64,000 nt of DNA from Bacteroidota bacterium. GTDB lineage: Bacteria > Bacteroidota > Bacteroidia > Bacteroidales > FEN-979. Where the stretch lies: NCBI GenBank assembly GCA_026391835.1, contig JAPLDF010000077.1, positions 1-64,000 on the forward strand, read 5' to 3'. This document shows, piece after piece, positions 10,462-64,000 of this stretch. Positions within the stretch are counted from its first letter, which is position 1; every line of letters begins with the position of its first letter. Below the pieces are notes generated by a model that worked only from the letters and a program-made list of their open reading frames with translations, was not told the DNA's origin and searched no databases. A program made the position numbers and the translations under genes.

Positions 10462-10496
10462 CCATTTTACAATTTTACCATTTTAGCAGTTGAATT

Positions 10497-11075: not shown

Positions 11076-11077
11076 CC

Positions 11078-49700: not shown

Positions 49701-52700
49701 GGAACCACCACTTATACATGGGTAAATAACACTACGAGCATTGGTCTTGGTGCCGCCGGTACAGGCAATATTCCTGCCTTTGCTGCCACAAACACCACTA
49801 CGGCACCTGTCGTTGCGACAATTGTTGTAACGCCTCATTTTGAGAACGGAGGGGTTACCTGTGACGGGCTTTCCAAGTCTTTCACGATTACAGTCAACCC
49901 AACCGGACAGGTAGACGACCCGGCTAACCAGGTTGTTTGCAATGGTGCGAATACGACGGTTGTTAATTTCAGTACCATCAATACAGGCGGGACTACCACC
50001 TATGCATGGTCAAACAACAAACCCGGCATCGGACTTGCATCCACCGGTACCGGCGATATCGCAGCTTTCAGCGCTATCAATGCCTCAACTGCACCTGTCA
50101 TTGCAACGATCACAGTAACACCTCATTTTGGTGACTGTTCCGGCCCGGCCGAGTCATTTACCATCACCGTCAATCCTACAGGACAGGTAAATCAGCCTAC
50201 CAGCCAGGTCGTATGCAACGGAACAAATACTTCAGTTACCTTCGGTACCATTAACACCGGCGGATATACAACCTATTTCTGGACCAACACCACAACCAGC
50301 ATCGGGCTTGGTACATTCGGTATTGGAGACATCGGTGTCTTTGCTGCCAGCAACACAGGCACTTCACCGGTTGTTGCCGTCATCAATGTCACACCCACAT
50401 TCACCAATGATGGTGTAAGTTGTTCAGGCCCAACCAAAGCATTCACGATTACTGTTAACCCGACCGGCCAGGTAAATCAGCCAGGCAACCAGTTGGTATG
50501 CAATGGTGCAGCTACAGCAGTTGTTACGTTCACGACAATCAATACCGGTGGTAATACAACCTATGTATGGTCCAACAACACACCAGGCATCAACCTTACC
50601 GCAAACGGTACAGGCAACATCCCTTCTTTCACAGCCGTCAATACCGGTACAGCACCCGTTGTTGCGACCATTACCGTAACACCTGCTTTTGAAAAGAAGT
50701 CGGTGAGTTGTGTGGGTACATCTAAAACCTTTACCATCACGGTTAACCCAAGCGGGCAGGTGAATCAGCCAGGCAACCAGATCGTATGCAATGGCACCAG
50801 CAGTGGCGCTGTTACTTTCGGAACCAATAACACCGGAGGAACCACCACCTATACATGGGCCAATTCAAATACAACCGTTGGACTTGGAGCAAACGGGACT
50901 GGTGACATTGCTGCCTTTATGACATCAAACACCGGAACTGCACCGGCAGTTTCAACCATTACTGTCACACCTCATTTTGAGAATGGTTCAGTAACATGCG
51001 ACGGGCCACCTGCGATCTTTACGATCACGGTTAACCCGACGGGCCAGGTAAATCAGCCAGCCAGCCAGGTTGTGTGCAATGCCGGATCTACATCAGATGT
51101 GATCTTTGCCACTGCCAATACGGGCGGGACTACTTCATATACATGGTCAAACAGTCTGCCGGCTATAGGTCTTGCAGCCCTGGGCACAGGTGATATTGCT
51201 TCTTTCACGGCATTAAACGCGACTACCGCACCTGTCGTTGCAACAATCACCGTAATACCCCATTTTGAAAACGGCGAAGTAATCTGCGATGGTACTGAAA
51301 AGACCTTCACCATCACGGTGAATCCTACAGGACAGGTGAACTTTACTGCCGACCAGTTGGTCTGCAATGGTACTTCTACTGCGGCCGTAACCTTCACTAC
51401 CAATAATACTGTTGGAACGACAACCTACGCCTGGGCAAACGATACACCTTCCATCGGACTTGCTTCCACCGGAACCGGAAACATCGCTTCCTTTACCGCC
51501 GTCAACACAGGTACTGCACCTGTGGTTGCAACCATCGGTGTAACACCGACGTTTACCTATGGCGGAAAAAGCTGTACCGGGCCCGAAGCCTTCTTTACAA
51601 TAACTGTGAACCCAACCGGACAAGTCATTCAGCCTGCAAACCAGGTCGTATGCAATGGTTCAACAACTTCGGTAACATTTGGAACCAACAATACCGGGGG
51701 TACTACCACCTATGCATGGTCAAATAATACTACTTCCATCGGGTTGGCAGCCAATGGTGCAGGGAATATTGCTCCTTTCAACGCTGTCAACACGGGTACT
51801 TCTCCCGTAACTGCCACGATTGTGGTGACACCTACTTTCTATATTGAGGGTTTTGTGAAGGATCTCCTGGTTCCCTGTACAGGACCTTCGGCCACCTTCA
51901 CGATCACTGTAAATCCGACCGGCCAGGTAAATCAGCCTGCAAACCAGGTGCTCAGCAACGGCTCCAGCACAACAGCTGTTACCTTCGGAACTGTGAACAC
52001 AGGCGGAACAACAACCTATGCATGGACAAACAACGACGCAAGCATCGGTCTCGGATCAACCGGAACCGGTAACATTGCAGCATTTACTGCAATCAACACC
52101 GGCGTTTCTCCTGTGGTTGCCACTATCTTTGTTACACCGACCTTTACAAACGGCGGAGTGAGTTGCACAGGTACAGGGAAGAGTTTCACCATCACGGTTA
52201 ATCCCAAGCCAATCCTGGTCATCACGAATCCTTCAACATGTTCCCCGCACAAGGTTGACCTGACTGCACCATCAGTAACTGCAGGCAGTTCATATCCTCC
52301 GACAACTATACTTACCTATTGGTATGATGCAGCGGCCACAAACCAGATCCTGGTCCCAACTGCTGTTGGTAACGGAACCTACTACATCAAGGCAACAATT
52401 CCTCCGGGCGGATGGTATGACATCAAACCGGTAGTTGCTACTGTTCACCCGTTGCCAACCATATTTGCCGGTACAGGAAGCGGGAACTATTGCGGCAATC
52501 TGCCTAGCGTCGTTGTTGGCCTCGCAGGCTCGCAACTGGGAGTTGTTTATACGCTCTGGATCGGCATTACACAGGTTAGCCCAAGCCCGGTTCCGGGTAA
52601 CGGAGGTCCGATCTCGTTTGGTTCGATTCCTCTTTTAACAGGTCAGTATTGGGTACTTGCAGAGAATGCAACAACCCACTGCCAGAACAGGATGTACAAT

Positions 52701-53531
52701 TGTATCTATATCACCATCGACCCGGTATTGCCTGTCAGCGTGACGATCACCGCATCTGCAAACCCGGTTGCTGCCGACATCGATGTCACTTTTACAGCCG
52801 TTGCGGTAAACGGAGGATTGACTCCATCATACCAGTGGAAGGTTAATACGTTCAATGTTGGTGTAAACAGTCCGACATATACCTATAAACCCATCAATGG
52901 TGATCATGTGACCTGTGTGGTTACTTCCAGTGCAAGCTGCGTCTCCAACAATCCGGCCATCTCCAACCTGATCCATATGAATGTGACAGGTTTGCATGTT
53001 GGCAGTATTACTGTTAACGGAATTGTTCCGGGTGCCGAATCTGCCTGTTACAATTCACTTGCGACCATCACCGTTGCAGGCAGCGGAACAACTTTCATCG
53101 TCAACAATGGCGGCAGTGCCACCATGATCGCAGGGCAGAATATCATTTACCTGCCGGGAACCACGGTTCAGGCAGGAGGCTATATGCACGGGTACATCTC
53201 CCTTACCGATCGTTGCGGTGTGAAGTCAGCTTCCATTGTAGCTGCCGGAACAGGTGAAGATGAGCAACTGCTGGTTGGTCAAAAAACCTCCTTCAGAATC
53301 TATCCCAATCCGACTACCGGGAACTTCACTGTTGAACAGACAAGTGGCTCCCAGTACGAAACTGTGAAGGTCGAGATTTATGGAATGCGTGGTGAGAAGC
53401 TGCTTACCGGACAGTTGACCGGCGAAAAGAAGCATGAATTCTCAGTCACAGGATTCCCGGCCGGACTCTATTTCGTGAAAATTGTTGCCGGTAACGAGGC
53501 AGAAACACTCAAACTGATAAAGACAAATTAA
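40707..53531 (+). CDS. Giant type IX-secreted repeat protein (4274 residues)
   Basis: Signal peptide MKKLLLFLFALALGATMFVQNSNA. Residues about 30-1010 and 1135-1635 are NosD/pectate-lyase-like beta-helices full of NN.I and GN.I turns; each ends in a P-D-x-G-A-D-E-F motif typical of this group. Ig-like and PKD-like modules follow, then a jelly-roll/MAM-like domain (about 1846-2030) with FESGASGWVFEDS. Residues about 2248-2392 resemble a cohesin domain (VDVPVRVSSFDNVGSLSLTFGYN). Residues 2393-3830 are 15 tandem repeats of about 96 residues. Another Ig-like domain and a type A sorting domain close the protein (SFRIYPNPTTGNFTVEQ ... GLYFVKIVAGNEAETLKLIK). It is Ser/Thr/Asn/Gly-rich and surface-exposed, probably an adhesin or matrix protein. 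Confidence 0.93.
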   Translation: MKKLLLFLFALALGATMFVQNSNAQVSTNGSSGLSLTYPSLAAAITALNVATITSSVVITLDAGNPQTAPAGGYAITATGVSGVTIAIHGSGNTITAFTPQASGNLNDAIFKIIGGDYITIDNFILQENAANTTSAVATNNMTEWGVALLYNTLTNGAQNNIIQGNTISLNRTYLNTFGIYSNTRHSATAVSTAAEVTAATGSNSFNKIYGNIISNVNYGIVFIGAGTTIAAIDNGNDIGGSIAGTGNSISNWGGGAATGGYISLTGNNYAIFDNQQINDNISFNTITSAALATAVTEGGILKNYSIASPVTGPITTTINNNTVTITNNPSAAATGGIVGINNQGLTPLLATATMSMNNNTVQNCVLGGTTSTTNGISCITNLSLPGTMNMNGNNVINNAITATTATTGIINGIANSGACGTLNITNNIIRGHASTSTSGQPQGITNSGVVVTAININNNQLGNATGGFFSTSTATSGGLFGISNSGGGAACALSIQTNDIRGITYNVAASATQTYITNSAIVLSEVISGNTFTNLNVNTTGATTFISETYSAIATATKTVTGNSIVTGFTRGGASGSVLLVTDNGSSAAGCVSTCTNNNFSNITVAGTSTIIGLNFTDGGTAPTRTVTGNVLNNWTAITGAVNAMNFSYWNGVSSLSSNTITNITGQAAITGITIGSSVNSATSIAIALNTINNLSSTGTGGTVIGINCSNTSTAINISGNVINTLSTTNTTGVVSGISIGGAANTSIFKNKIYDLSGNQAGSIINGINITSGSTLNIYNNLIGDLRATAATGLNAINGINASATSTYNVYYNSIYLNATSSSATTFGNSCMTFSSTATALNSRNNILVNLSTPGLNGTNVATNGIAACLRRSTGTTGTIPGNYSLTSNNNDFWCNPTSGTNNHLVYCEGTSTVTNPYNTMPALKAFFSTRDQASFAENPNFLGTTGSAANFLHISTLTATQLESGGGTIATVTTDYDGDYRFGDPSYVGTGTAPDVGADEFAGIPSDLTAPAITSITLVGNSCNLTSRNVTAIISDASGVDNASFKPRIYFRKNAIAYFSAPGTLTSGTVNSGTWTFTITYATLSGVTTTDVIDYFIVAQDALVNVGGVPAAGLVLSNVNTVTSPPTAPLTYSIQNALSGDYNVGSGQTYTTITAAIAAYNSSCMAGAVTFLLTDASYTEAAAMTINANADASPANILTIKPLLANTTIGVTGGSVTAVFILNGADYVTIDGSINNTVNACCSVPATRDLTITNANSGVTSAVIWLQTNVLDGATNNIIKNCNLVGNSNITTLFGAGSGSSSIGLSSLGTGNNNNAFINNNISKTQYGLYSQGASAAAKNSGNVFSLNLMNTATPNNVAKGGIVTGFENNLTISCNQVDGIVQTSSPDVFGITLGVQGISTSSFSGNEVTNATVAKNLIGSIRNTGTFSACGICVAPATTGNNLIANNMLSGVSANGTTGDFGVGIFIGGGSGSTTQVYYNTVTMVGTQTGGNDKSYCLAIGGSNPTVDVRNNILVNTQNNGTGSNYALAYGYTPFTNLTSSNNDLYVTADATHFIGATASISAPTNQATLLNLQTATGKDGASVNILPIFAGPADLRLVPATNTLLNDLGIPVSVTDDIECETRSATPDMGADEFTPPSCVTAVGGTASGSTSFCSSGTPAITATGYSIGLFSTYQWMYSTTIGDYPTGGSAFVGQTNPASLTTGVVSTTTYYWLRVGCTVNGNTTDNSTMVTITVNPSIAHISGTSVKCANDPAVTLTEDGGTGTSWVWSTTATTQSVSVNPAVSTVYSVSVTSPGSCIAVGTFALTVNPNPPGVTASASASPLCAGTPFNLTSTATSANPTILSEGFESGASGWVFEDSLSTGSSIAGQIFHIQAAPYTDASGSATFSNFSITGSKFAYANADAGGSGSFTRTKMYSPSFSTVGFTGSGTLTFNHVYRYWASSAPPEKVRVSISIDGGASWADLQSYEGLDRGTVTNNLQVAAPTSITVPAIYMGQPNVKLRWRYISNWGYFWCLDDILLTGTPASYTFGWTSTPPGFTSSDQNPTNVTQTVTRDYHVTVTGLGGCTSLASATVVNNPLPTPSISGSLIICAGSSNTLDAGAYAGYHWSTDATTRTISVSTASTYAVTVTDVNGCVGSTSVVTSVHPLPEINLATGGTSSICPGTGTNITVEGSIIGTNYQLRNDADNSPVGLPVGGDGGTINLPTGNLAVTTTFNVLATIASTGCSAQLTGKVTIIVGGPITTISNRIVCEGTATVDVPVRVSSFDNVGSLSLTFGYNNAELTNPVIVSRNAAFEGFWDPFEVTTTPAGTFKVSGFGPLPGDGVTIGPNDILFTLQFNIVSGTTYSPITLNENVQGTACEYTSIAPDFTPFCDTPPSTYYIAGSVTVNPLGHVNDPADQVVCNGELTADVIFTSSKGPALTSYTWTNTNTTIGLAASGSADIPAFTAINTGTSPAIATIEVTPTYNNGGVGCVGPSQTFTITVNPTGQVIDPADQVVCNGASTGAVSFATNNSDGITTYSWTNDTPQIGLSGTGTGDIDSFTAINTGTSPVVATITVTPYFENGSVSCIGPFETFTITVNPTGQVNTPADQVVCNGGLTTDVDFISNNGGGSVTYAWTNDTPGIGLDASGSGNIPAFTASNTGTAPVVASIAVTPTFTNSGVSCSGTPVTFTINVNPTGQVNDPSNQVVCNGTTTALVTFGSVNTGGTTTYTWDNTTTSIGLAGSGIGNIAGFIASNTTTAPVSATITVTPHFENGQVICDGPTESFDITVNPSGQVNDPANQVVCNGANTSVTFGTNNTGGTTSYTWANTTTSIGLGASGSGDISSFMATNTTTTPVIATITVTPFFENGLVTCSGPTENFTITVNPSGQVNDPADQVVCNGASTGSVTFGTNNLGGTTTYTWSNSASGIGLAASGTGDIASFTAVNTTFMPVVATITVTPHFENGSVTCDGTVQTFTIAVNPTGQVNDPIDQDLCNGATTSVVFGTLNSGGTTTYTWVNNTTSIGLGAAGTGNIPAFAATNTTTAPVVATIVVTPHFENGGVTCDGLSKSFTITVNPTGQVDDPANQVVCNGANTTVVNFSTINTGGTTTYAWSNNKPGIGLASTGTGDIAAFSAINASTAPVIATITVTPHFGDCSGPAESFTITVNPTGQVNQPTSQVVCNGTNTSVTFGTINTGGYTTYFWTNTTTSIGLGTFGIGDIGVFAASNTGTSPVVAVINVTPTFTNDGVSCSGPTKAFTITVNPTGQVNQPGNQLVCNGAATAVVTFTTINTGGNTTYVWSNNTPGINLTANGTGNIPSFTAVNTGTAPVVATITVTPAFEKKSVSCVGTSKTFTITVNPSGQVNQPGNQIVCNGTSSGAVTFGTNNTGGTTTYTWANSNTTVGLGANGTGDIAAFMTSNTGTAPAVSTITVTPHFENGSVTCDGPPAIFTITVNPTGQVNQPASQVVCNAGSTSDVIFATANTGGTTSYTWSNSLPAIGLAALGTGDIASFTALNATTAPVVATITVIPHFENGEVICDGTEKTFTITVNPTGQVNFTADQLVCNGTSTAAVTFTTNNTVGTTTYAWANDTPSIGLASTGTGNIASFTAVNTGTAPVVATIGVTPTFTYGGKSCTGPEAFFTITVNPTGQVIQPANQVVCNGSTTSVTFGTNNTGGTTTYAWSNNTTSIGLAANGAGNIAPFNAVNTGTSPVTATIVVTPTFYIEGFVKDLLVPCTGPSATFTITVNPTGQVNQPANQVLSNGSSTTAVTFGTVNTGGTTTYAWTNNDASIGLGSTGTGNIAAFTAINTGVSPVVATIFVTPTFTNGGVSCTGTGKSFTITVNPKPILVITNPSTCSPHKVDLTAPSVTAGSSYPPTTILTYWYDAAATNQILVPTAVGNGTYYIKATIPPGGWYDIKPVVATVHPLPTIFAGTGSGNYCGNLPSVVVGLAGSQLGVVYTLWIGITQVSPSPVPGNGGPISFGSIPLLTGQYWVLAENATTHCQNRMYNCIYITIDPVLPVSVTITASANPVAADIDVTFTAVAVNGGLTPSYQWKVNTFNVGVNSPTYTYKPINGDHVTCVVTSSASCVSNNPAISNLIHMNVTGLHVGSITVNGIVPGAESACYNSLATITVAGSGTTFIVNNGGSATMIAGQNIIYLPGTTVQAGGYMHGYISLTDRCGVKSASIVAAGTGEDEQLLVGQKTSFRIYPNPTTGNFTVEQTSGSQYETVKVEIYGMRGEKLLTGQLTGEKKHEFSVTGFPAGLYFVKIVAGNEAETLKLIKTN
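47883..52196 (+). repeat. Fifteen tandem repeats of about 288 bp inside the giant gene
   Basis: Each encoded unit starts VNPTGQV, then DQVVCNG, TTTY(T/A)W, IGLAASGTGDI, VVATITVTPHFENG, V(T/S)C(D/S)G and TFTIT. Two Cys per unit probably form a disulfide. Unit 8 is shortened before its second Cys, unit 14 has an insertion there, and unit 15 has Ser (VLSNG) in place of the first Cys. The DNA copies differ by many silent changes, so they are not recent duplications. Confidence 0.92.
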
Positions 53532-53601: not shown

Positions 53602-54687
53602 CTACAGCACACTGTCGAACGCACCTATGTAGGAATCTGTGATCGTGTCCCACTGGTAACTGGCATTGATTTTATTCACATTGTTGGTGAGAAAATGGGG
53701 ATGGTCGCTCTTGCGGGGATCGGACCGGATCAGGCCGGCTATGTCGTGTTCATTGCTGAAATAAAAAGCATCTGAACCCAGGATCATATGTGTAAAACGA
53801 TTCTCGTGGGCACAGATCAATGCTCCCGACGCCATGGCTTCCAGCAGCGAGGGATTCGTTCCGCCGGAAGAGTGGCCGTGGAAGTAAATGCAGGCATGAT
53901 GCCTGAGCTGGTTTAACAGGTTGACATCAAAGATCCCGCCCAAAAACCTGATGTTTGCCGAGGGATATGCCGACTGCAAATATTTGCAGTATTTGTTGTT
54001 GGTGCTGCCGACAAGCAGCAACTGCTTAGCTGAACCCGATTCAATAAAACCCTTTATGATGATTTCGGTGTTGTTGTCGCTTTGGATTCTAGAGATCGCC
54101 AGGTAGTAGGAGCGGGGTTCCAGGTTGTAAATCTTAAGAAATGATTCATCCGGTCTTTCTAAAACATCTGCGCCGTAAGGTATAAATTCAGATTTGGCGC
54201 CATAGGTTGTTTGAAAATATTCCCGGATGTGGGGTGAATCAGCAATGAGCAAATCGCTGCTGTTAACAGCCAGCAATTCTGCATGCCGGATAAACGATTT
54301 CAGGAGCCGGTTGTATTTTGAACGCGACCACTCCAAACCATCCACATTGGTGATGACCCGGGCATCTGCCGGCAGAAACCTGTGCCAGACGGCAGCCGTG
54401 GCATATCCCAGTTGCAGGATTACATCAAAATTTCGTTTGCGGCTGTCAAGGATGCAGTTGAGGTCGTAAATGAACGGTCCTGCCGCACCAATGAGATACT
54501 CAGGATCATAACAATGTACAATGTGAACCCCGTTCCATTCGGATTCCCGGTACGGATGGTTGTGCGAATTATATACCCAAACCTCAATGCCCCGCTTTGC
54601 CAGCCTGGCCGAGAAGAATTCGGCAAACTGCTCAAAGCCCCCGTAATTGTTGGGGATGCCGCGGGTTCCCAGGATGCCGACCTTCAT
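53602..54687 (-). CDS. Family 4 glycosyltransferase with DUF1972 N-terminus
   Basis: A 361-residue GT-B enzyme. The N-terminus MKVGILGTRGIPNNYGGFEQFAEFFSARLAKRGIEVWVYN is DUF1972, found in rhamnosyl- and other glycosyltransferases of exopolysaccharide clusters. The donor domain has YYLAISRIQSDNNTEIIIKGF, FHGHSSGGTNPSLLEAMASGALICAHEN with the conserved Glu. Its start overlaps the stop of the family 2 enzyme gene upstream by four bases. It is the last gene before the terminator and could act on the lasso peptide's phosphate or side chains, or on an unrelated glycan. Confidence 0.9.
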   Translation of the reverse strand: MKVGILGTRGIPNNYGGFEQFAEFFSARLAKRGIEVWVYNSHNHPYRESEWNGVHIVHCYDPEYLIGAAGPFIYDLNCILDSRKRNFDVILQLGYATAAVWHRFLPADARVITNVDGLEWSRSKYNRLLKSFIRHAELLAVNSSDLLIADSPHIREYFQTTYGAKSEFIPYGADVLERPDESFLKIYNLEPRSYYLAISRIQSDNNTEIIIKGFIESGSAKQLLLVGSTNNKYCKYLQSAYPSANIRFLGGIFDVNLLNQLRHHACIYFHGHSSGGTNPSLLEAMASGALICAHENRFTHMILGSDAFYFSNEHDIAGLIRSDPRKSDHPHFLTNNVNKINASYQWDTITDSYIGAFDSVL

Positions 54688-55547
54688 GTATGGATAAAGC
54701 GTTTAATAATTCTGACCGGAAAACAGATGCCAGCCAAAGCCAGGAAACAGTACCTTGTAACCCGGTTCGTTGAGAGCTGGTATTTCCTGTAAAAGTAGAT
54801 ATAATAGAAATAGAGCACTATCCTGATTTTTGGTGTTCGGGTACCCCAGATCCGGTCACGGATCCCGAATATGTTTTCTATTCCCTGAAAAGTGATGGTG
54901 CTTGTTGAACTTGCCGGGTGGATCCTCATCCGGTACAACGGCTCGGAAAGGTTGGCGAATTTAAAGCCGTCCCTTGCCAAACCGGAAAAAAATGTATAAT
55001 CCTCTCCCGGAAACACTTTCTCGTACCTGTATCCTTGGATTATAGCCCTGCGGATGATGGCAGCGGGGTGCTGTATGCCATTGACCCCGTACCGGTAGGC
55101 TTTTACAATGTCGGCGTGTCCTGCCGGGAAATTGGAAACATTCAGGTTCCTGCCGGTTTTGAAATGAAAGTACTGAACCTGGCAGCCGGCAATTCCGGTT
55201 TCGGGATGCGCTTCCATGTAATGATACTGGCGTTCAATGCGTTCATGGAAAAGGGTGTCGTCCGGATCGGCGCGCATGATATACCTGCCGGTTGCGGCTT
55301 CCAGCCCGGCGTTAAGGGCATCGGTGATACCGCGGTGTTCAGCAAACCGGATTATTTTGAGGTATGCCAGGGAAGCAAATTTTTCGAGTACGGCAACTGA
55401 CTCATCCGTTGACCCGTCATCAACCAGGATCAGTTCACGGGGAAGACAGGTGGAGTTGACAATGCTTTCAATAAACTCAGCCAGGAACCGGCCGTTGTTG
55501 TAATTGGGGGTGACGATGGATATGTCTGCGACCGGTTTTTCAGGCAT
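54684..55547 (-). CDS. Family 2 glycosyltransferase
   Basis: A 287-residue GT-A enzyme. The ATG at 55547 opens MPEKPVADISIVTPNYNNGRFLAEFIESI, the usual GT2 start; the frame upstream overlaps the ABC exporter and is not coding. ELILVDDGSTDES and MRADPDDTLFHERIERQ (metal site DPDD) follow, with EKVFPGEDYTFFSGLARDGFKF near the acceptor site (GED). A short hydrophobic stretch near the C-terminus may attach it to the membrane. It overlaps the exporter gene by eight bases, tying it to the lasso operon. Confidence 0.9.
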   Translation of the reverse strand: MPEKPVADISIVTPNYNNGRFLAEFIESIVNSTCLPRELILVDDGSTDESVAVLEKFASLAYLKIIRFAEHRGITDALNAGLEAATGRYIMRADPDDTLFHERIERQYHYMEAHPETGIAGCQVQYFHFKTGRNLNVSNFPAGHADIVKAYRYGVNGIQHPAAIIRRAIIQGYRYEKVFPGEDYTFFSGLARDGFKFANLSEPLYRMRIHPASSTSTITFQGIENIFGIRDRIWGTRTPKIRIVLYFYYIYFYRKYQLSTNRVTRYCFLALAGICFPVRIIKRFIHT

Positions 55548-57264
55548 GCTGGATTCTCCCTTTTTCGAGGTGGATAACCTGGTCGGCAATCCTGTGAAAT
55601 TCCGTGCTGTGGGATATAATGACCATGGTGGTGGTTCCCTTGATACGTTCCAGCGCTTCGATGATCTTCCATTCGTTTTCCCGGTCGAGGGAGTTGGTTG
55701 CCTCATCAAGGATGAGCAGGGTTGGCTTGCGGACAAGCGCCCTGGCCAGGGCCAGGCGCTGCCTTTCACCTCCCGACAATTGCGCACCACGATCACCAAC
55801 TACTGTTTCAAGCTGCGAGTTTAAATTGTTCACCATCTCATCAGCAGACGCTTTTTCCAAGGCATTCCACATCTCTTCCTCACTTGCATCCTGCTTTGTC
55901 CACAGCAGGTTGTTCCGAATTGTATCATTGAACAGGAAGGATTCCTGCGTGACGTAACCGATGCTCTTTCGCCACTTGTATATGGTGGCTTCACTGAGTG
56001 GCTGGTTGTCGACCAGGATATCCCCGGAACCCGGTTTCAGCAAGCCAAGGATCATATCGGCCATTGTTGTTTTTCCGGAACCGGATGAGCCCGTGATACA
56101 GGTTATTTTGTTAAGCGGGATTAAAAGGGAGAAATGTTCCAGTACGAGGTTGCCGCCATAACTGAACGAGACATCCCTGAATTCAATGGAACCTGCCAGT
56201 TGTACCGGGCTGTCATTTCTTATTAAATTCTCACTGTGCCGGTCACACTCTTTCTGCAGGTCCATGACCACGTTAAAGGCAGGGATCGATTGAAGGATGG
56301 ACTGGTAGGCGGATTGCAGGGAGGAGACCTTGGGAAGCAACCTTGAAAAAATATAGATCAGGACCAGTAAAGTCGATGCACGCAACGCAAGAACTTCAAT
56401 GGCAAGGTAGACATAGCAACTTAAAAGGATTACCGTTCCTGCAGAAAACATAAAAGAGGTGCGTGAGCTCAATTTCACGTAATCAATTTTACGGTTTTCA
56501 AGATCTTCGGTATGTTTAATAAATTCGTCGATATACTTGTCTTCTTCTGCAAAACTTTTTGCAACTTTCATTCCTGACAAGTGTTCCAGAACAACCTGGT
56601 ACATTTTTCGGGCAGCATGCTGGCTGGATTTCCCAAGGTACGAAGCTGACTTGTTTTTCTTCTGACCCAAAAGCAATAAAATGAGTGCCCCGGCTAAGGA
56701 GATTGAGGCCATTGACGGGGATAGTAAAAAGGCCACCACCAGGTAGGCCAGCATGGTTATGAGTGTGCTGGTGGACCTTAATACCTGGAAAATGACCTGC
56801 CCGGCCCGCTGAACCTCTGAGGTGATGGTATGCGCCACATCCGAAATGCGCAGGCGTGAGGCAAAAAGCCATTGGCTGTGCCCCAGGGATATGTATAATT
56901 TATCTTTCAGGAACCTGACAAACCTGTGCTGGATCTTTGCATTGACAATGCCCTGGTAGTTGGTGAGCGCTGAGTTCATTGTTACAATTACAATGTAAAA
57001 CAGCAGGATGGTTATAATGCCACCGGGAATGCCTGTTTTATGAAGGAATGAGAGCATTTTCCCTATGAAATCAGATTCTTTTGCCTGTTTGTCGAAAATG
57101 CCGATCAGGCTTAGCAACGGGATCAACAGCAAAATACCTATGCCCTGTGTGAACCCGGTTAAAACCTGGAGGACCAGGGATATGATCACCTTTTTACCGG
57201 AAAAAGCAAACAGGTCTTTTGTCAGACGGATTAAAAAAGAATATTCCTTATGCTGGAGTTTCAT
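55540..57264 (-). CDS. ABC exporter of the lasso peptide cluster (D protein)
   Basis: A 574-residue half-transporter with six membrane segments (about 20-300) and a C-terminal ATPase: Walker A ITGSSGSGKTTMAD, Q-loop YVTQESFLFNDT, signature QLSGGERQRLALARAL, Walker B LLILDEATNSLD and switch His in VIISHSTEF. No C39 peptidase domain, as expected when a separate B2 protease removes the leader. It is 129 bases downstream of the precursor gene, with a hairpin between. It probably exports the finished peptide and gives self-immunity. Confidence 0.9.
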   Translation of the reverse strand: MKLQHKEYSFLIRLTKDLFAFSGKKVIISLVLQVLTGFTQGIGILLLIPLLSLIGIFDKQAKESDFIGKMLSFLHKTGIPGGIITILLFYIVIVTMNSALTNYQGIVNAKIQHRFVRFLKDKLYISLGHSQWLFASRLRISDVAHTITSEVQRAGQVIFQVLRSTSTLITMLAYLVVAFLLSPSMASISLAGALILLLLGQKKNKSASYLGKSSQHAARKMYQVVLEHLSGMKVAKSFAEEDKYIDEFIKHTEDLENRKIDYVKLSSRTSFMFSAGTVILLSCYVYLAIEVLALRASTLLVLIYIFSRLLPKVSSLQSAYQSILQSIPAFNVVMDLQKECDRHSENLIRNDSPVQLAGSIEFRDVSFSYGGNLVLEHFSLLIPLNKITCITGSSGSGKTTMADMILGLLKPGSGDILVDNQPLSEATIYKWRKSIGYVTQESFLFNDTIRNNLLWTKQDASEEEMWNALEKASADEMVNNLNSQLETVVGDRGAQLSGGERQRLALARALVRKPTLLILDEATNSLDRENEWKIIEALERIKGTTTMVIISHSTEFHRIADQVIHLEKGRIQHA

Positions 57265-57289
57265 CTCTTTCCAGGTTCATTAACAGGGT

Positions 57290-57321
57290 TAAAACAAAAA
57301 CAGCAGGTGATACCTGCTGTT
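57290..57321 (-). terminator. Hairpin with T-run between precursor and exporter genes
   Basis: AACAGCAGG (57299-57307) pairs with CCTGCTGTT (57313-57321), loop of five. On the minus strand the stem is followed by TTTTTGTTTT. It probably ends or stabilises most precursor transcripts while letting some read into the exporter, as in other lasso clusters. Confidence 0.75.
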
Positions 57322-57393
57322 TGAATGTTGTTCTATACTCAAACTTGACTTCTGTCTGCATTGAAGTCGAAAATGATTAAACATCAAGAAGAC

Positions 57394-57549
57394 CTACGAC
57401 CCATACGGATCAGTATAATGTGCATCTTCCTTTGTCCATGGATGACCGCCACCACTTGTCATCTTTGAATTAATAATTTCAATTTCAGGACATTGCCAGG
57501 TCTTTCTCTTAGGAGCGTCCTGTTTTTTAACTTGGGAATCATTTTCCAT
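57394..57549 (-). CDS. Lasso peptide precursor (A peptide)
   Basis: A 51-residue peptide starting MENDSQVKK. The leader (1-32) is charged and carries W18..P21.I23...N27, a form of the Y..P.L...G motif bound by B1 proteins, and Thr31 at position -2 of the cleavage site. The predicted core (33-51) is GGGHPWTKEDAHYTDPYGS: Gly1 can close onto Glu9, giving a nine-residue ring and a ten-residue tail. The last residue is Ser, the site phosphorylated by lasso kinases. ATG 57549 is preferred over the in-frame ATG at 57618, which lies inside the cyclase end. Cys20 of the leader is unusual. Confidence 0.88.
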   Translation of the reverse strand: MENDSQVKKQDAPKRKTWQCPEIEIINSKMTSGGGHPWTKEDAHYTDPYGS

Positions 57550-57614
57550 GGCCGAAGAATAATAGTGTAAATTATACGATCTGTAACGAGACAGCAAGTA
57601 TAAGCAAAATTCTG

Positions 57615-59528
57615 TCAAATTGCAAATATATTTTCAACAATATTTTTAAAGCGGTATAGTTGAAAATATTTATTGATCAATGATTTGTAATTTAACATGT
57701 TAGGGTCTTTGTCCAGGAGCAGGTGATTAACAGCCTCGGGATTAAATATCCTGGAGAAGCAACTCTCGCCATCCCGGATGATCTCACTGAGGACTTCTTT
57801 TATCCGTATTGAATCGTTGCTGAATAGGAGGGAAAGCCCAGGGTTGATGGTAACATGTTTATCCTGCCGCCAGATGATTGGTTCCGGAAGATGACCCTGC
57901 ATGGCTATCCGGTGCAGGTACCTGCCGACCCGGAACCTGCGTCTCAGTTCATCAGGGACGGACAGGTAATACCCAATGAGATCAACATCATACATAGGAT
58001 ACCTGTATTCAATTGAATCATGCCCGGCCGTCAGCGCTGTTGTCTCAATCCGGTCGTTCATGTGCCTGTTTGTGATTTTTAAAATAAGTTCCTGCAGGTT
58101 TGAAGTCATCAGGATGGCTGTTTCCCGCTGTTTAAGGTAGTTGTGCTCAAGATTGTATTGTCTGACAAGTTCAGGGTTTAACCCATACTTCAGCATTTTT
58201 TTGAGCTCACTTCTTTTTTTACCGCTGCCATTCCCTGCCGGACGCATGTTCAGAAGGTGTTTTATGGATTGTAAAATGGGCAGTTCCTGCGGGGTTCCCC
58301 TGGCCTGGATTTCATTCAGTAGCGTCAGGTACCGGTGTTTTTTGTAGTAATCATGGTAAACAAAAGCGGCCGGGCTGGTAACCATTTGGTCGCCGCCATG
58401 CCCCGAAAGCATCGTCCGGATTCCGGCAGACCTTGCCTTGTGATGAATGGCGAGGTTGTACGCTGCATAATTGCTCGCATAGGGGGACCTTAACACATCA
58501 ACAACACTGGAAATATTATCGCTTATTTTTTCACCTTCCATGGTAATCAGGTGCGGGTTTCCGATGCCACAGAAGTTACACACCAGATTGATTCCACTGG
58601 TTTCATCATCATTGTCCTTTTCCTGGTCCGGTAATTTCCGGTCAGGCAGCACACGGGCAAAAACATGAAGTTGTTCATGATCTGCAGGCATTTGTTCCTG
58701 TGCAAATGAAACAACCGATGATGAGTCCAACCCGCCACTCAGCTCTGCACCAACCGGGTACGCCGACCGGGTGCGATCCTTTACCGCCTTTGCAAACAAG
58801 GTTTTATATCCTTCAATATACTCCCGGTCGGTCTTCTTTTCCTGTTTTTCTGGCAGCGCAAGCTCCCAGTATTTATCCAGGGATACATTCCCGTTGCCGA
58901 TAGTTATGGAGTGGCCGGGAGGAAGCGATAAAATTCCTTTGTAAAATGTATCACGGGCTTCACGGTCAACATTGATCAGGAAATCGAGCAACCAGACGTT
59001 GTTAACCTCCCGGTTAAAAAACGGCAATGCGAGTATCCCGCGGAGTTCGGTGGAAAAGATGAAAAACCGGGGATGATCATAATAAAACAGTGGCCGCATG
59101 CCAAAATGGTCGCGCGCAAGAAAAAACCGGTATGAACGGATATCATAAATTCCGAAAGAGAAATCGCCTCGCAAATATGCGCAACACCCGGTTTCCCATT
59201 TTTGCCATGCTTTCAGGATGAGTGAACTATCTGACATCGTTCTCAGTTCACCCTCGTTAATCCGCAGCAGGCCGGCCAGCTGGCTCCGGTTATCAATCCT
59301 CGAATCGCTGCAGATGGCAACACCTGATTCAAAGTCCTCATGCGGCAGGATCTCTTTGAGGGATTCGGGCGTGTTAAATACCTGCAGGTTGCCAATTCCG
59401 GCATTTCCGTTCTGCCACAGACCCGAATGATCCGGATTCCCATGAGCAAGGTCAGCCCCCATCAGTTCGAGCCATTGCCGGTCGAATCCCTGCCCGGATT
59501 TATCAATGATCCCGAATATTGTACTCAT
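57615..59528 (-). CDS. Lasso peptide cyclase (asparagine synthetase-like, C protein)
   Basis: A 637-residue ATP-dependent macrolactam synthetase that would adenylate Glu9 and join it to the new N-terminus. The N-terminal glutaminase-like domain (about 1-200) begins MSTIFGIID: residue 2 is Ser, not the Cys needed to release ammonia. The synthetase domain has the PP-loop SGGLDSSSVVSFA (about 265) and LSGHGGDQMV in place of the SGEGADE of true asparagine synthetases. Both changes are typical of lasso cyclases. The gene is 11 bases downstream of B2, and its stop (57615) contains the precursor promoter region. Confidence 0.92.
   Translation of the reverse strand: MSTIFGIIDKSGQGFDRQWLELMGADLAHGNPDHSGLWQNGNAGIGNLQVFNTPESLKEILPHEDFESGVAICSDSRIDNRSQLAGLLRINEGELRTMSDSSLILKAWQKWETGCCAYLRGDFSFGIYDIRSYRFFLARDHFGMRPLFYYDHPRFFIFSTELRGILALPFFNREVNNVWLLDFLINVDREARDTFYKGILSLPPGHSITIGNGNVSLDKYWELALPEKQEKKTDREYIEGYKTLFAKAVKDRTRSAYPVGAELSGGLDSSSVVSFAQEQMPADHEQLHVFARVLPDRKLPDQEKDNDDETSGINLVCNFCGIGNPHLITMEGEKISDNISSVVDVLRSPYASNYAAYNLAIHHKARSAGIRTMLSGHGGDQMVTSPAAFVYHDYYKKHRYLTLLNEIQARGTPQELPILQSIKHLLNMRPAGNGSGKKRSELKKMLKYGLNPELVRQYNLEHNYLKQRETAILMTSNLQELILKITNRHMNDRIETTALTAGHDSIEYRYPMYDVDLIGYYLSVPDELRRRFRVGRYLHRIAMQGHLPEPIIWRQDKHVTINPGLSLLFSNDSIRIKEVLSEIIRDGESCFSRIFNPEAVNHLLLDKDPNMLNYKSLINKYFQLYRFKNIVENIFAI
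57623..57630 (-). promoter_or_regulatory. TAnnTTTG promoter of the lasso precursor
   Basis: TATATTTG on the minus strand at the very end of the cyclase gene. The predicted start near 57617 gives a leader of about 68 bases before the precursor ATG. Confidence 0.6.
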
Positions 59529-59538
59529 CTGGCTGGTC

Positions 59539-59949
59539 TTAGAAGATTTCTTGAACTACAGTATGTTTTTTATTACCATCCTTCCCGCAAATAAACTGGT
59601 TTCCGGATTTAAGCCATGCATGGGCCTTCAGGCGGCCCCCTTCCCTGGCAACTCCCAGGTATATTGTACCGGGCAGGTGCAGGATTTTCAGCAACAACTT
59701 TCCTGTAAGGGCCTGTACAAGGCATTTCCCGTTCCAGGGCAGGTAATGAAGTCCCCGCAGCAAAGCTTTACGGACAATCAATATCCGTTCGACAGTGATT
59801 TTCCGATAGGTACGGTTTGATTTATCTGTAAAAAGAGGAATATACCAGCGAAACGGCACGAACAGTACGAGCAGCTGGCACAGATAAAGGAAAACAGTGG
59901 CTACCAAAAAATACCAAATGTCGGCTGCACCAATTTTTTTCTGAACCAT
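59539..59949 (-). CDS. Lasso leader peptidase (transglutaminase-like, B2 protein)
   Basis: A 136-residue protein with the McjB C-terminal fold. Catalytic Cys76 is in WNGKCLVQALTGKLLL and His110 in LKAHAWLKSG; the acidic third residue is not certain. A hydrophobic N-terminal segment (about 11-38) may bind the membrane. It would cut the leader from the precursor after Ser32, with leader delivery by the B1 protein encoded 19 bases upstream. The split B1/B2 arrangement is common outside proteobacterial type I clusters. Confidence 0.9.
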   Translation of the reverse strand: MVQKKIGAADIWYFLVATVFLYLCQLLVLFVPFRWYIPLFTDKSNRTYRKITVERILIVRKALLRGLHYLPWNGKCLVQALTGKLLLKILHLPGTIYLGVAREGGRLKAHAWLKSGNQFICGKDGNKKHTVVQEIF

Positions 59950-59968
59950 TTATGCGGCAGTTTCCGTC

Positions 59969-60250
59969 TTAACCATTCACGACAATCAGGCTTTCGTTGA
60001 AGAGTTTTTCAACATAGGCAATGACTTCGTTTTGACAAGTATCCTGGTCCACGTCAAATTCCTCCATCAGCCGGTCACAAATTGCCTGGACAGTCATCGG
60101 TTCGGTGAGCATCTCCCAGATTTCCGCAGCAACCGGATTCAGGCCGTAATAATTTCCTTTTTCAATGTTCATCATCACAACCTCATCATCCATCTTACTT
60201 GAAATGATCGACGCATTCTTGGAAATGACTGAAAGTAAATTTAATGCCAT
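59969..60250 (-). CDS. PqqD-like leader recognition protein (B1, RRE)
   Basis: A 93-residue protein of the PqqD/RRE fold: VVMMNIEKGNYYGLNPVAAEIWEML (beta-hairpin then helix) and a three-helix end, IYDRL-like AICDRLMEEFDVDQDTCQNEVIAYVEKLFNESLIVV. It binds the precursor leader and presents it to B2. No pqq genes are present. It is separated from the sulfotransferase gene by 110 bases that contain a small hairpin (60298-60317). Confidence 0.92.
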   Translation of the reverse strand: MALNLLSVISKNASIISSKMDDEVVMMNIEKGNYYGLNPVAAEIWEMLTEPMTVQAICDRLMEEFDVDQDTCQNEVIAYVEKLFNESLIVVNG

Positions 60251-60297
60251 GGTTGAATCCTGTTAGTTTTTTTCTGTGCTTTAAAGGAAAAATCATC

Positions 60298-60317
60298 AAA
60301 TGCGGCAGATCGCATTT
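60298..60317. terminator. Small hairpin between sulfotransferase and B1 genes
   Basis: AAATGCG and CGCATTT form a 7-bp stem with a six-base loop, followed on the minus strand by GATGATTTTTCC. It may be a weak terminator or processing site dividing the modification genes from the core genes. Confidence 0.35.
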
Positions 60318-60360
60318 ATCAGGTAAAAGTACTCATTTTTGTTATTCCCGGCAATTTCTA

Positions 60361-61239
60361 TTAACGAATGTCGTCTGCCGGTTTCGGGGAAAGGGTATCG
60401 AAAGCGGGTTCCAGGTATCCGAACCGAGCCATTAAATGATGGTGTTCACTGGTTATTCTTTTTACCTGCAATTCATTTAAAAATGTTTTCCATGTTCCTT
60501 CTTTCCCGTATCTGAAAAAAGATTCACATTTCTGAAGTTTTTCTTTAAACCCGAATTCAGCTTCCGATTTTTTCAATGTTTCAAAGGATGTTTCTGACAC
60601 GGCTTGCCACACCTGTTCTTCAGAAAAGCTTAAGTTAAGAAACCTGAGTGCGTTCGTAAATGTTTGCACAGGGCAGGCGAGCATGTCCTCATACCGGATT
60701 ATATGAACCCTGATTCCCGAATTCAGCCAGCTTGTAACATGATCGCTCCAGGAGCCAAGCCATTCTTCAAGTAATGGCTTTAAACTATCGTTAGAAGTAT
60801 GCAGCGTCTGGCCGGGATTGTTCAGGGCAAGGATTATCTCATCCACCGGTTTTCCGAAGTACAAGGCATTGGATACAACTACATCAAGGGGGTTACGGAT
60901 AAAATAAACGCATCCATATGAATATCCCGGGGGGAATAGAGGATCTCCGGCCGGGGTGATATAGAACCTGTCGTGGGATTTCAAATAAACAGGATTCTCA
61001 GATTGTTCTGAGAGCAACTGATAGACAACCGGGCGAAGATTTCTGATTTCCTCAACAGTAAGTTCGGAGGCCCGGAGCCCGGCCAGTTCATCGAACATGT
61101 TCCTGGAACTTGCCAGCTGATCAATTTCCAGGTGGTTCAAATCCTTTCCATGGAACCCGGACAGGAAGTTCGATAAAAATATCCTGAACCAGGTATTGCC
61201 CGATCGCGGATAAGATGCCAGCCATACCAGGTTTTTCAT
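60361..61239 (-). CDS. PAPS-dependent sulfotransferase in the lasso cluster
   Basis: A 292-residue soluble sulfotransferase. The 5'-phosphosulfate loop is WLASYPRSGNTWFRIFLSN at the N-terminus; the 3'-phosphate-binding segment is in FIRNPLDVVVSNALYFG (Arg and Ser), and IRYEDMLACP follows. This is the domain arrangement of cytosolic-type sulfotransferases. It overlaps the kinase gene by four bases (ATGA), so kinase and sulfotransferase are co-translated. The target could be a Tyr, Ser or Thr of the core (Tyr45, Tyr49 of the precursor) or a glycan; the sequence cannot decide. Confidence 0.87.
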   Translation of the reverse strand: MKNLVWLASYPRSGNTWFRIFLSNFLSGFHGKDLNHLEIDQLASSRNMFDELAGLRASELTVEEIRNLRPVVYQLLSEQSENPVYLKSHDRFYITPAGDPLFPPGYSYGCVYFIRNPLDVVVSNALYFGKPVDEIILALNNPGQTLHTSNDSLKPLLEEWLGSWSDHVTSWLNSGIRVHIIRYEDMLACPVQTFTNALRFLNLSFSEEQVWQAVSETSFETLKKSEAEFGFKEKLQKCESFFRYGKEGTWKTFLNELQVKRITSEHHHLMARFGYLEPAFDTLSPKPADDIR

Positions 61240-62177
61240 TCAACAGTATTGATGATTCCTGATTGGTGAAGATCCTGTTCGATCATTTCCATTGTTTCGT
61301 CCAGGTGTGTCATCCCATGCTGTCGCTGCAGGTTGCAAATCCTGATCCCGGAGACAATCTGGGACGCCTCCGTAAAAATATCAGCTGTGCCGGACTGTTC
61401 CCTTTTCAGGTAATTCTTCCTGAAGATCTTTCCCAGGAACAGGTCCAGTTTTTTAAAACCGCTCACTTCCGTTATTTCAGCCGGCCCGCCATTCTTATAC
61501 GCAAGGAGATACAACTGTTGCAATGGAACTGCCTGTTTGACAAACCGTTCCTGGATATTTACCACCATTTTATTCACACTTTTGCGAATCAGCCTCGTAT
61601 CATCCCACTCGAATCCAAGTTTTTCAGAAGAATCACGCCAGAGTTTCATCAGCGGATAACCGGGCAATACGATGGGAATGCCTGTCGGGTCCAGGGAAAT
61701 GGCCGAAATGTCATCAGAAATGATCATAGCATTTTTTTTGGTTACAAAGGCCGAGGCAATGGTCGATTTTCCGCTTCCGGACGGGCCGGAAAAAATGACA
61801 GCATGATTGCCTCTTTTTATCGCACTACCGTGAACAATGACAATTCCCCGCTGGTGCATCAATACAGCTATGGCCGAGGCCCATAAAAACACGATTATTT
61901 CATGTGTTGCAACCCCGGGATTCTTCTCGATGGTGATGGTTTCTCCGTTTTCGATCAGGTAACGGCCAACATTATTAACGTTCAGCAAAAACCGGGTTCC
62001 TTGTGACTGATAAGCCCCTCCGGTTACGTCAGGGTTGCTCAACCTTTGCGGAACCGCGCCGAAGTTTATCCTGCAATCAGGTTTGGAGGATGCTGGTTCA
62101 GCAAAAAAATCAGGGTGCTCAATGCACGACTGAAAGACCAGTCCGAAAGCTTTATAATAATGGTAGTGCTGATTCAT
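61236..62177 (-). CDS. Lasso peptide kinase (HPr kinase-like)
   Basis: A 313-residue kinase from ATG 62177. The ATG at 62219 is rejected because it lies inside the promoter box region. The C-terminal half has the HprK-type P-loop VIFSGPSGSGKSTIASAF (about residues 128-145), preceded by VIVHGSAI, and a Walker B-like AMIISDDISAI. HPr itself and catabolite-repression genes are absent, and the family includes lasso peptide kinases such as PadeK and ThcoK that phosphorylate the C-terminal Ser. The precursor here ends in Ser. It is the first gene of the cluster. Confidence 0.85.
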   Translation of the reverse strand: MNQHYHYYKAFGLVFQSCIEHPDFFAEPASSKPDCRINFGAVPQRLSNPDVTGGAYQSQGTRFLLNVNNVGRYLIENGETITIEKNPGVATHEIIVFLWASAIAVLMHQRGIVIVHGSAIKRGNHAVIFSGPSGSGKSTIASAFVTKKNAMIISDDISAISLDPTGIPIVLPGYPLMKLWRDSSEKLGFEWDDTRLIRKSVNKMVVNIQERFVKQAVPLQQLYLLAYKNGGPAEITEVSGFKKLDLFLGKIFRKNYLKREQSGTADIFTEASQIVSGIRICNLQRQHGMTHLDETMEMIEQDLHQSGIINTVE

Positions 62178-62216
62178 GAAAGAGAAACAAGGAGTGAATA
62201 ACGACCAAATCAAGGG

Positions 62217-62224
62217 CAAATATA
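62217..62224 (-). promoter_or_regulatory. TAnnTTTG promoter of the lasso operon
   Basis: TATATTTG on the minus strand; predicted start near 62211 and ATG at 62177, giving a 33-base leader. Confidence 0.65.
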
Positions 62225-62302: not shown

Positions 62303-63115
62303 ATGAAAGAATTGTTTAAAAATGTCGTTGACCTTAAGACCAGTCACGAAATGTTTAAGAACCCTGCGTATTCCTACTCGGTTTCTGGCAGATGGATCAC
62401 CCCTAAATCCGACATTGTTAAATATTTGCAGTTTTTCTTTATTTACATTGATTTTGCCCGGATATCCTCCGTTTTCGGAAGTACGGCGGAGCCTTCAGCA
62501 TTTTATGGGGGCAGGGTTTATGATGCAAAGAAATCACTGACTCAAAACCAGATCGACATACTTTACCGGAAAAAGATCAACTTGGCGCTGACACTCACCA
62601 ACCATTTTTATTCTGCTGAACTATACGGTCAGAACCAATCCTTTCTCGATAAATACCACCGCAAGGGGAATGTCATCATATGTACTTCAGATGAATTGGC
62701 AAGGATGATCAGGAAGGATTTTCCACTATACCACATCAGGGCGAGCATCATCAAAAACCTGAATTCGGTGGCGAAAGTCAGGAAGGCATTCGAACTGTAC
62801 GACGATGTGGTGATCCCGATGGATATGAACGATGATGACGAGTTCCTGGAAAGCGTCCCTGAAAAAGACCGGATCATGTTGTTTGCCAATGCTGCATGTG
62901 CCTACAACTGCCCGTCAAGAGTCTGCTATCCTGAAATTTCCAAATTCAACCAGGCTAAAACGGATAAGGTCCGCTGCAAAAAACAGGAACTCGGATTGCT
63001 TGAATATGCCTTCTATTTCTTCAATGTTGAAAAGTTTCATGATATGGGATTTTCAAACTTCAAACTGATCCCGACAAAACTCTTTGGCAGCTACCTGAAA
63101 TCATCTGCGCAATGA
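62303..63115 (+). CDS. TIM-barrel-like protein of unknown function
   Basis: A 270-residue protein. Alternating strands and helices (ISSVFGSTAEPSAFYGG, KINLALTLTNHFYSAELYG, NVIICTSDELARMIRKDFP, HIRASIIKNLNSV, DDVVIPMDMNDDDEFL, RIMLFANAACAYNCPSRVCY) look like the barrel of radical SAM or U32 peptidase-like proteins. No CxxxCxxC is present; the Cys set NAACAYNCPSRVCY resembles the metal-site region of U32 relatives. No signal peptide. It is divergent from the lasso operon and overlaps the next gene by four bases (ATGA). The function is unknown. Confidence 0.6.
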   Translation: MKELFKNVVDLKTSHEMFKNPAYSYSVSGRWITPKSDIVKYLQFFFIYIDFARISSVFGSTAEPSAFYGGRVYDAKKSLTQNQIDILYRKKINLALTLTNHFYSAELYGQNQSFLDKYHRKGNVIICTSDELARMIRKDFPLYHIRASIIKNLNSVAKVRKAFELYDDVVIPMDMNDDDEFLESVPEKDRIMLFANAACAYNCPSRVCYPEISKFNQAKTDKVRCKKQELGLLEYAFYFFNVEKFHDMGFSNFKLIPTKLFGSYLKSSAQ

Positions 63116-64000
63116 CGAAGGATGGTGATATTTGCCTCGTAACCGTCACAACTGCGAGTTATACGCAGTGGACCATGATCATGTTCTTTTCGTTTCTTCA
63201 GTCCAATCCGTGGTTTAGTGGCGATTTGATTGTGATATGCAAGGACATGAACGCTGAAGATAAGGCCAGGTTTGGGATTTTTCCCAACATACGGTTTGTA
63301 ACCCCTTCGGAACAAATGTTATCCAGAATAGCCGGACTATGCAGGGCTATTCCCGGGTTTACCAGGCTTGCCCCGATGTTTTACTCTCTGGAGACGTTTA
63401 ACCTGTCCGGGTATAAAAAAGTGATGTTCCTCGACAGTGACATGCTGGTCGTCAAACCGGTGGAGGAGATGTTCAGTTTTGCAGCGCCATTCGGTGCGGT
63501 AGCCGAATCCTGCTGGTACCATGGAAAAGGAAGAAGAACCGACACGTATGAAGGCGTTGACAGCTGCACTATACCAGGATTGTTCCTTGAAAATCCGGTG
63601 AATTCAGGATTCCTCGTTCTTGATGAGACAATAGTTCACGGATCAAATTACAACCACCTGGTAAAGATGGTTGAACCGGGGTTATGGGCCAATAAAAACA
63701 CGCTGCATGCCGATCAGCTCATCATAAACCTTTTTTTCAGGGAACGGATTGAACTGGTCAGTGCACGTTACAATTTCAGGCCGACCAACGCCACTGAGAT
63801 TTATGCAAAGGAGGGTATCAGCCTGGAGGATGCAAAAATTATCCACTATTTCCGGCAATACAAACCCTGGAATTTCAAAGAAGTGCTGGAATTATCACAA
63901 AACGACATGGTGCAACTTAAAGCTTTCAACATATGGTACACCTGGTATGTGAAATTTTTGAAATTCAACCATTTAAAACGAAAAATCAACAACTTAAAAA
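63112..64000 (+). CDS. Family 8 (glycogenin-like) glycosyltransferase, 3' end cut by window
   Basis: At least 296 residues from ATG 63112, open to the window edge. The N-terminus CLVTVTTASYTQWTMIMFFSFLQSNPW and VMFLDSDMLVVKPVEEMF (metal-binding DSD) mark a GT8 enzyme. NSGFLVLDETIV and HADQLIINLFF follow in the family order, and KIIHYFRQYKPWNF ends the domain. It probably transfers a sugar to a glycan or protein. It is translationally coupled to the barrel-like protein, so the pair may act together. Confidence 0.88.
   Translation, partial: MTKDGDICLVTVTTASYTQWTMIMFFSFLQSNPWFSGDLIVICKDMNAEDKARFGIFPNIRFVTPSEQMLSRIAGLCRAIPGFTRLAPMFYSLETFNLSGYKKVMFLDSDMLVVKPVEEMFSFAAPFGAVAESCWYHGKGRRTDTYEGVDSCTIPGLFLENPVNSGFLVLDETIVHGSNYNHLVKMVEPGLWANKNTLHADQLIINLFFRERIELVSARYNFRPTNATEIYAKEGISLEDAKIIHYFRQYKPWNFKEVLELSQNDMVQLKAFNIWYTWYVKFLKFNHLKRKINNLK

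Follow-up and report, generated by a model that had tools for sequence, protein, structure and literature searches.

What does a lasso peptide gene cluster make when a kinase, a sulfotransferase and two glycosyltransferases accompany its biosynthetic genes, and how far does the functional unit extend? This question is raised by a contig of a Bacteroidota bacterium (JAPLDF010000077.1, assembly GCA_026391835.1; Bacteroidales, FEN-979), whose positions 1 to 64,000 form the window analysed here and carry such a cluster at 53602-62219. On balance the locus is read as one island whose genes make and heavily decorate a lasso peptide. That a lasso peptide is made is very likely, and its phosphorylation on Ser, for which homology and a conserved Ser argue, is probable. 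Sulfation of the product is slightly favoured, while the chances that this locus glycosylates the peptide appear evenly balanced. The conserved set of 16-18 genes, together with the protein R1 beside sulfotransferases, looks new.

The cluster is formed by nine open reading frames (ORFs), all on the minus strand. The ORF coordinates bear out the gene number, order and strand given in a preliminary description of the sequence, as well as the overlaps of the kinase and sulfotransferase genes (4 nucleotides), of the exporter and GT2 genes (14 nucleotides) and of the GT2 and GT4 genes (4 nucleotides); the Bacteroidota host proposed there is also supported. In the direction of transcription the genes code for the HprK-like kinase K (61236-62219, annotated from a TTG but probably starting at the ATG at 62177, which better matches the starts of its relatives), the sulfotransferase ST (60361-61239) that would use 3′-phosphoadenosine 5′-phosphosulfate (PAPS), the PqqD/RRE leader-binding protein B1 (59969-60250), the transglutaminase-like leader peptidase B2 (59539-59949), the asparagine-synthetase-like lasso cyclase C (57615-59528), the 51-residue precursor A (57394-57549), the ABC exporter D (55540-57264), the glycosyltransferase GT2 (54684-55553) and the DUF1972-type glycosyltransferase GT4 (53602-54687). 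The lasso-family homology expected in hidden Markov model searches was found above cut-off for B1 (NF033536, 92.2 bits, cut-off 80) and B2 (NF033537, 68.9 bits, cut-off 33). For C, the lasso cyclase model NF033535 is the top NCBIfam match, yet its 370.2 bits lie below the cut-off of 525; C also matches PF00733 (139.7 bits) and its placement between B2 and A is conserved in relatives. ST (PF00685, 82.7 bits, cut-off 22), GT2 (PF00535, 105.8 bits, cut-off 23.3), GT4 (PF09314, 74.7 bits, cut-off 25) and D (PF00664 and PF00005 above cut-off, the latter with 118.1 bits for a cut-off of 25) are assigned by Pfam. GT4 scores 205.9 bits with a Cps2T-like rhamnosyltransferase model, under its cut-off of 500. 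K stays under the cut-offs of the models listed for it (HprK_rel_A, 33.8 bits for 200; Hpr_kinase_C, 17.4 bits for 33.3). In an alignment of 11 kinases His116, Lys137 and Asp155 are invariant and Asp156 is present in at least 90%, a set of residues consistent with the His-Lys-Asp-Asp motif described for lasso kinases (PMC9266682) if, as we infer, the positions are equivalent. The blocks YPxSGNTW and RNPLDVxVS of ST are conserved in its alignment (n = 11). A search of viral contigs with C as query gave no confirmed match, and a search of plasmids with the DNA of the nine genes gave none.

The lasso ring is closed on an Asp or Glu at core position 7-9. The predicted core of A (57397-57453) is GGGHPWTKEDAHYTDPYGS, in which the predicted ring joins Gly1 to Glu9, with Asp10 as an alternative acceptor. 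In all five aligned precursor orthologues of the genus, W..PEIE.INSKMT is followed by a core whose first residue is Gly or Ser, and both the KED stretch around Glu9 and the final Ser are kept. The earlier assignment of a lasso cluster with a kinase is supported. Thr31 and Glu41 are invariant among these orthologues and lie at position -2 and at core position 9, respectively; Thr at -2 is the rule for lasso precursors (PMC10368454). With 15.4 bits, A does not reach the cut-off (27) of the PadeA precursor model NF033524 and is therefore not assigned to the paeninodin-family precursors. A hairpin followed by a U run (57291-57322, minus strand, z -5.2) separates A from the exporter gene. A comparable hairpin is found at the same place in four relatives (z -2.3 to -4.8), and it is read as a putative terminator or attenuator.

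The cluster had been described as ending near 62220. A conserved unit with this boundary is rejected, as a divergent operon that adjoins K and starts at 62303 on the plus strand is conserved alongside. Its gene order is R1-GT8-ST-GT8-ST-ST-GT8. R1 (62303-63115), a protein with a predicted U32-like fold, is followed by the glycosyltransferase GT8a (63112-64000, running 23 nucleotides past the window; PF01501, 49.7 bits), and the remaining ST, GT8, ST, ST and GT8 genes precede two minus-strand genes coding for NTP_transf_5 and Wzy_C proteins (contig positions 64004-71454 in all). The NTP_transf_5 gene (68250-69491) matches PF14907 with 161.5 bits (cut-off 31.2), a family of which we take the PsmN protein of pseudomycoidin synthesis to be a member. 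It is overlapped by the gene of the Wzy_C protein, which belongs to the O-antigen ligase/polymerase family. The island totals five glycosyltransferase and four sulfotransferase genes.

Conservation was assessed in samples of 43 genomes of the family, 393 of the order and 395 in a phylum scan, from which records near the window were possibly left out, with thresholds of E 1e-60 for C, 1e-40 for GT2, 1e-5 for R1, 1e-20 for the operon sulfotransferase STc and 1e-10 for NTP_transf_5. C is found in five of the 43 family genomes, namely the source genome and G012, G013, G016 and G022. The full nine-gene order of the source genome recurs in three others (L018, L019, L020), and a fourth locus (L021), which begins inside C at a contig end, keeps the C-to-GT4 part in the same order; the cluster is therefore not a chance arrangement. 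GT2 orthologues are confined to the same five genomes, and GT4 lies directly behind GT2 in all of them. R1 and STc occur in four of the 43, the C-bearing set minus G013, whose contigs are short. NTP_transf_5 has matches in nine, with at least 52% identity in the five C genomes and at most 29% in four others. The kinase search found five genomes, four that bear C and G019, which has a 35% relative. The operon order is retained in G012 and G022, while in G016 two GT8 genes directly follow R1 and none comes later. The NTP_transf_5/Wzy_C pair follows the operon in G022 and G016; in G013 it has a GT8c-like gene as its neighbour, on a short contig that is not the one with C. Past GT4 the same giant gene is found in the source genome and in G022, and G012 and G016 each have another gene, the block itself being intact. 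Note that G019 holds a divergent second lasso-type system of the genus, with K-ST-B1 on one contig and ABC-NTP_transf_5-C-B2 on another (L047, L059), so that lasso genes do occur in some of the 38 family genomes that lack orthologous C. An ABC-NTP_transf_5-C arrangement is also seen in G024 (L060).

In the favoured reading of a decorated lasso peptide, B1 would bind the leader via the W..P motif, B2 would cut it after Thr-Ser and C would form the ring by linking Glu9 to the N-terminus of the core. Phosphorylation of the C-terminal Ser by the kinase would follow, the NTP_transf_5 protein with GT2, GT4 and the GT8 enzymes would assemble sugars on this phosphate or on side chains, the sulfotransferases would sulfate the peptide or its sugars and the ABC protein would export the product. 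We infer every chemical step, the step order and the sites. Sulfation and glycosylation, both put forward in the preliminary description, remain plausible. The +80 Da form suggested there as a readout does not by itself tell sulfation from phosphorylation, as the two products (calculated 2135.828 and 2135.837 Da, respectively) have the same nominal shift.

R1 reaches no Pfam family, its only match being a sub-threshold one to Glyco_transf_4 (E 0.047), and has no match to PF01136 (U32) even with E up to 5 allowed; a sequence search of solved structures with the R1 alignment gave E 0.66 at best. The model predicted from 10 sequences (mean predicted local distance difference test score, pLDDT, 84.3; predicted TM-score, pTM, 0.85) has the U32 structure 5d88 as its top PDB match (E 1.7e-7, query TM-score 0.56, against E 1.8e-3 for the second-best match), as had a weaker first model. 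A profile comparison (hhalign) of R1 with U32 proteins of the family, which used shallow profiles, was not significant (E 0.28, probability 0.2%). R1 is therefore called a protein of U32-like fold and not a member of U32. Cys199, 203, 208 and 225 are invariant in all 10 aligned proteins, a fragment in L165 being left out, and are the four conserved Cys expected of a U32 protein for a 4Fe-4S cluster, whose binding by R1 is putative. UbiU and UbiV, which are U32 proteins, bind 4Fe-4S and are required for an O2-independent hydroxylation (PMC6747719); R1 resembles them in its model and in its four invariant Cys but differs in Cys spacing and in the missing PF01136 match. In the phylum scan R1 is found in seven of 395 genomes, the source genome and six of one other genus. 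A sulfotransferase-like gene adjoins R1 in five of these six loci and is one ORF away in L165 (checked with Pfam in L164 only), where R1 is a fragment and an adenosine 5′-phosphosulfate (APS) kinase gene is present (Pfam). In L160, L161, L162 and L164, R1 is followed by CysD- and CysN-CysC-like genes for PAPS synthesis (Pfam-checked in L164); L163 has no PAPS-synthesis-like gene beside R1. Genes of giant or GLUG-repeat proteins are near R1 in this genus (Pfam-checked in L160 and L164). No lasso genes are found near R1 in L160-L165, bar kinase-profile matches of 15-17 bits on the CysN-CysC-like protein. These loci perhaps represent a system for sulfation of surface proteins that works without a lasso peptide. 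R1 is also encoded in a locus labelled Desulforapulum autotrophicum (L083), as an R1-sulfotransferase fusion between ST and C, with B1 and a candidate precursor ending in Ser nearby. Directly upstream of its kinase gene this cluster encodes a TPR protein that includes a GT41 (O-GlcNAc-transferase-like) domain (L083:7337-9091).

Two neighbouring functions could be mistaken for one island: an ordinary phospho-lasso cluster, and a separate operon that glycosylates and sulfates a surface polysaccharide or the adjacent giant proteins. This alternative is rather unlikely, and several observations speak for it. The Wzy_C protein is of an O-antigen ligase/polymerase family. On both sides of the island the source genome and G022 have giant ORFs, one of them with a type IX secretion system (T9SS) sorting domain, and in the six genomes of the other genus R1 with a sulfotransferase-like gene stands near giant or GLUG-repeat genes, without lasso genes, so that the divergent operon may have a different target. 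In Bacilli, paeninodins and the peptides called LPPs often co-localise with capsular polysaccharide loci, their role being unknown (PMC13381572); the island bears on what phospho-lasso peptides are for, since here, too, lasso genes sit among glycan genes. Other points weigh against the decorated-peptide reading more generally. No product of the island is known, and the kinase, the cyclase and the precursor all score under curated family cut-offs. NTP_transf_5 and Wzy_C are on a separate contig in G012, B2 was not detected in L083, and the five genomes form one genus and perhaps reflect one inheritance, so that their counts are not independent events. At the order level C is found in 11 of the 393 genomes, the source included, and GT2, GT4 and R1 have matches in none of the 10 other loci; the build-out is therefore not general. 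APS kinase is encoded in 41 of the 43 family genomes, including G012, G013, G016 and G022, and was not found in the source assembly (96.74% complete) or in G011. PAPS supply is thus not established for the source genome. An assembly gap may account for the missing gene, which still counts against sulfation in this strain. Against a division into two functions, orthologues of GT2, STc and R1 are absent from the 38 family genomes without orthologous C, some of which (such as G019) have a different lasso-type set. In L083 the R1-sulfotransferase fusion is enclosed by a lasso-type cluster. The exporter, GT2 and GT4 genes overlap in succession, and the flanks differ in G012 and G016.

The flanking giant genes deserve a separate description. 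The ORF at 40707-53531 of the window, directly beside the lasso cluster, codes for a repetitive protein of 4274 residues that ends in a T9SS sorting domain (TIGR04183, 42.6 bits, cut-off 23) and has a homologue on the same side in G022. The ORF on the other flank codes for at least 2585 residues (L032:12244-20000, contig C17 from 72244 onward); homologues lie beside the island in G022 and, with 41% identity over 644 residues, beside NTP_transf_5/Wzy_C in G012.

The kinase-sulfotransferase pair extends far beyond the genus. K, ST, B1 and B2 are near C in six of the 10 other order loci (L024, L025, L027, L028, L029, L030). Inspection by eye of L024, L025, L027 and L028 shows precursor candidates that carry TEGG where the core begins and end in Ser, and none was recognised in L029 and L030. 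Relatives of ST were also sought in named genomes, of which the best 80 of 573 loci were kept. Genes were scored there with profiles built here and many contigs are short, so that the counts are lower bounds: K is present in 69, B1 in 59, C in 52, B2 in 46, NTP_transf_5 in 35, GT8 in four and R1 in one. Among the taxa in the record titles are Bacteroidales, Chloroflexi, Acidobacteria and Proteobacteria. K lies at most 300 nucleotides upstream of ST in 65 of the 80, and putative sulfotransferase genes are also described in Firmicutes lasso clusters (PMC8498205); K with ST is therefore rejected as a rare combination. A precursor pattern that left the last residue free gave 28 matches in 24 of the 69 loci with both K and ST, 45 having none, and no match in a base-reversed control. 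The final residue is Ser in 21 of the 28, and some of the seven others look like chance. The K-ST pair thus accompanies lasso genes in general, and what sets this island apart is the build-out with glycosyltransferases, further sulfotransferases and R1. The frequency of K-ST without GT8 or R1 would suit a paeninodin-like phospho-lasso peptide carrying a single sulfation by ST, GT2, GT4 and the divergent operon having no role in the product. This is improbable, as GT2 is present in all five genus genomes with C and has GT4 directly behind it, in frames that overlap in the window, and at least two lineages outside the order (L084, L088) join K-ST with GT8 and extra sulfotransferases. The acidobacterial locus L084 also has NTP_transf_5, GT2 and ABC by profile, in addition to GT8, and a Sulfotransfer_2 gene by Pfam. 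A further alternative is a lasso-like peptide for signalling or adhesion that stays attached by its Ser phosphate to a glycan of the cell surface and is not freely secreted. It would agree with the overlap of the Wzy_C and NTP_transf_5 genes and with the high conservation of the core between species, but is the least probable, as no acceptor glycan or anchoring signal was identified and an ABC exporter gene is present.

Several known systems come close to the locus. An iteratively glycosylated mature lasso peptide has reportedly been described, going by the title of a 2025 paper by Sun. PadeK phosphorylates a lasso peptide on Ser, and gene knock-outs in the paeninodin and pseudomycoidin clusters indicate Ser phosphorylation and hexosylation of the phosphate, the latter needing PsmN (PMC8498205, PMC9266682), although PMC9266682 does not settle whether PsmN acts as the glycosyltransferase itself. 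The locus resembles the paeninodin family (PadeK, ThcoK, SyanK) in the HprK-like kinase beside lasso genes, the C-terminal Ser of the precursor and, for some Firmicutes clusters, the putative sulfotransferase (PMC8498205), and differs from it in the precursor below the PadeA cut-off, the extra GT2 and GT4 and the divergent GT8/ST/R1 operon. The available text of PMC8498205 reports no sulfated product for this family. Pseudomycoidin shares the kinase and an annotated nucleotidyltransferase (PMC9266682), to which the PF14907 gene of the island would correspond. In Firmicutes clusters of this type, which can encode a nucleotidyltransferase, its gene lies between B2 and the exporter (PMC8498205), whereas here the divergent operon separates it from the kinase by about 6 kb, and the glycosyltransferase and sulfotransferase genes are far more numerous (five and four). 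Ruminal lasso clusters carry kinases and glycosyltransferases, and those of Butyrivibrio, a member of the Firmicutes, have an HPr kinase, a nucleotidyltransferase and a GT2 beside lasso genes; the main text of PMC7533575 that describes them does not mention a sulfotransferase. The Bacilli loci share the HprK-like kinase, the NTP transferase and an MsbA-like transporter amid glycosyltransferase or capsule genes but their LPPs are linear, and the word sulfotransferase is absent from the main text of PMC13381572. The terms sulfotransferase and glycosyltransferase are also absent from the consulted text of a 2026 review (PMC13352647), and no sulfated lasso peptide was found in the literature searched, which left subscription papers mostly outside. 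The island offers a compact, conserved test case for the role of the lasso-associated sulfotransferase, for the combination of phosphate, sugar and sulfate on one peptide and for a possible oxygen-independent modification of peptides by U32-like proteins.

A possible function of R1 is suggested by the best 80 loci with ST. A gene resembling Asp/Asn beta-hydroxylases or JmjC proteins is present in all six loci with GT8 or the extra sulfotransferase types that were profiled, against four of the 74 others, and is not found in L083, which bears R1. This link is a lead only, being partly circular: three of the six loci gave the seeds, two of the other three look related and some of the four are weak matches. 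The hosts of the hydroxylase loci are presumably aerobic, Desulforapulum anaerobic and the other R1 genomes probably so. R1 might then be an oxygen-independent iron-sulfur peptide hydroxylase that equips the lasso peptide with new hydroxyls; sulfation of these by the partner sulfotransferases and glycosylation by the GT8 enzymes would give a product with phosphate, sugar and sulfate, aerobes using Asp/Asn beta-hydroxylases or JmjC proteins instead; this extension of the favoured reading is doubtful. Elsewhere in the window, four consecutive genes (9370-12308) resemble hddA, gmhA, hddC and gmhB, all below the cut-offs of the named equivalog models. They correspond to the GDP-D-glycero-D-manno-heptose pathway and could supply a sugar donor.

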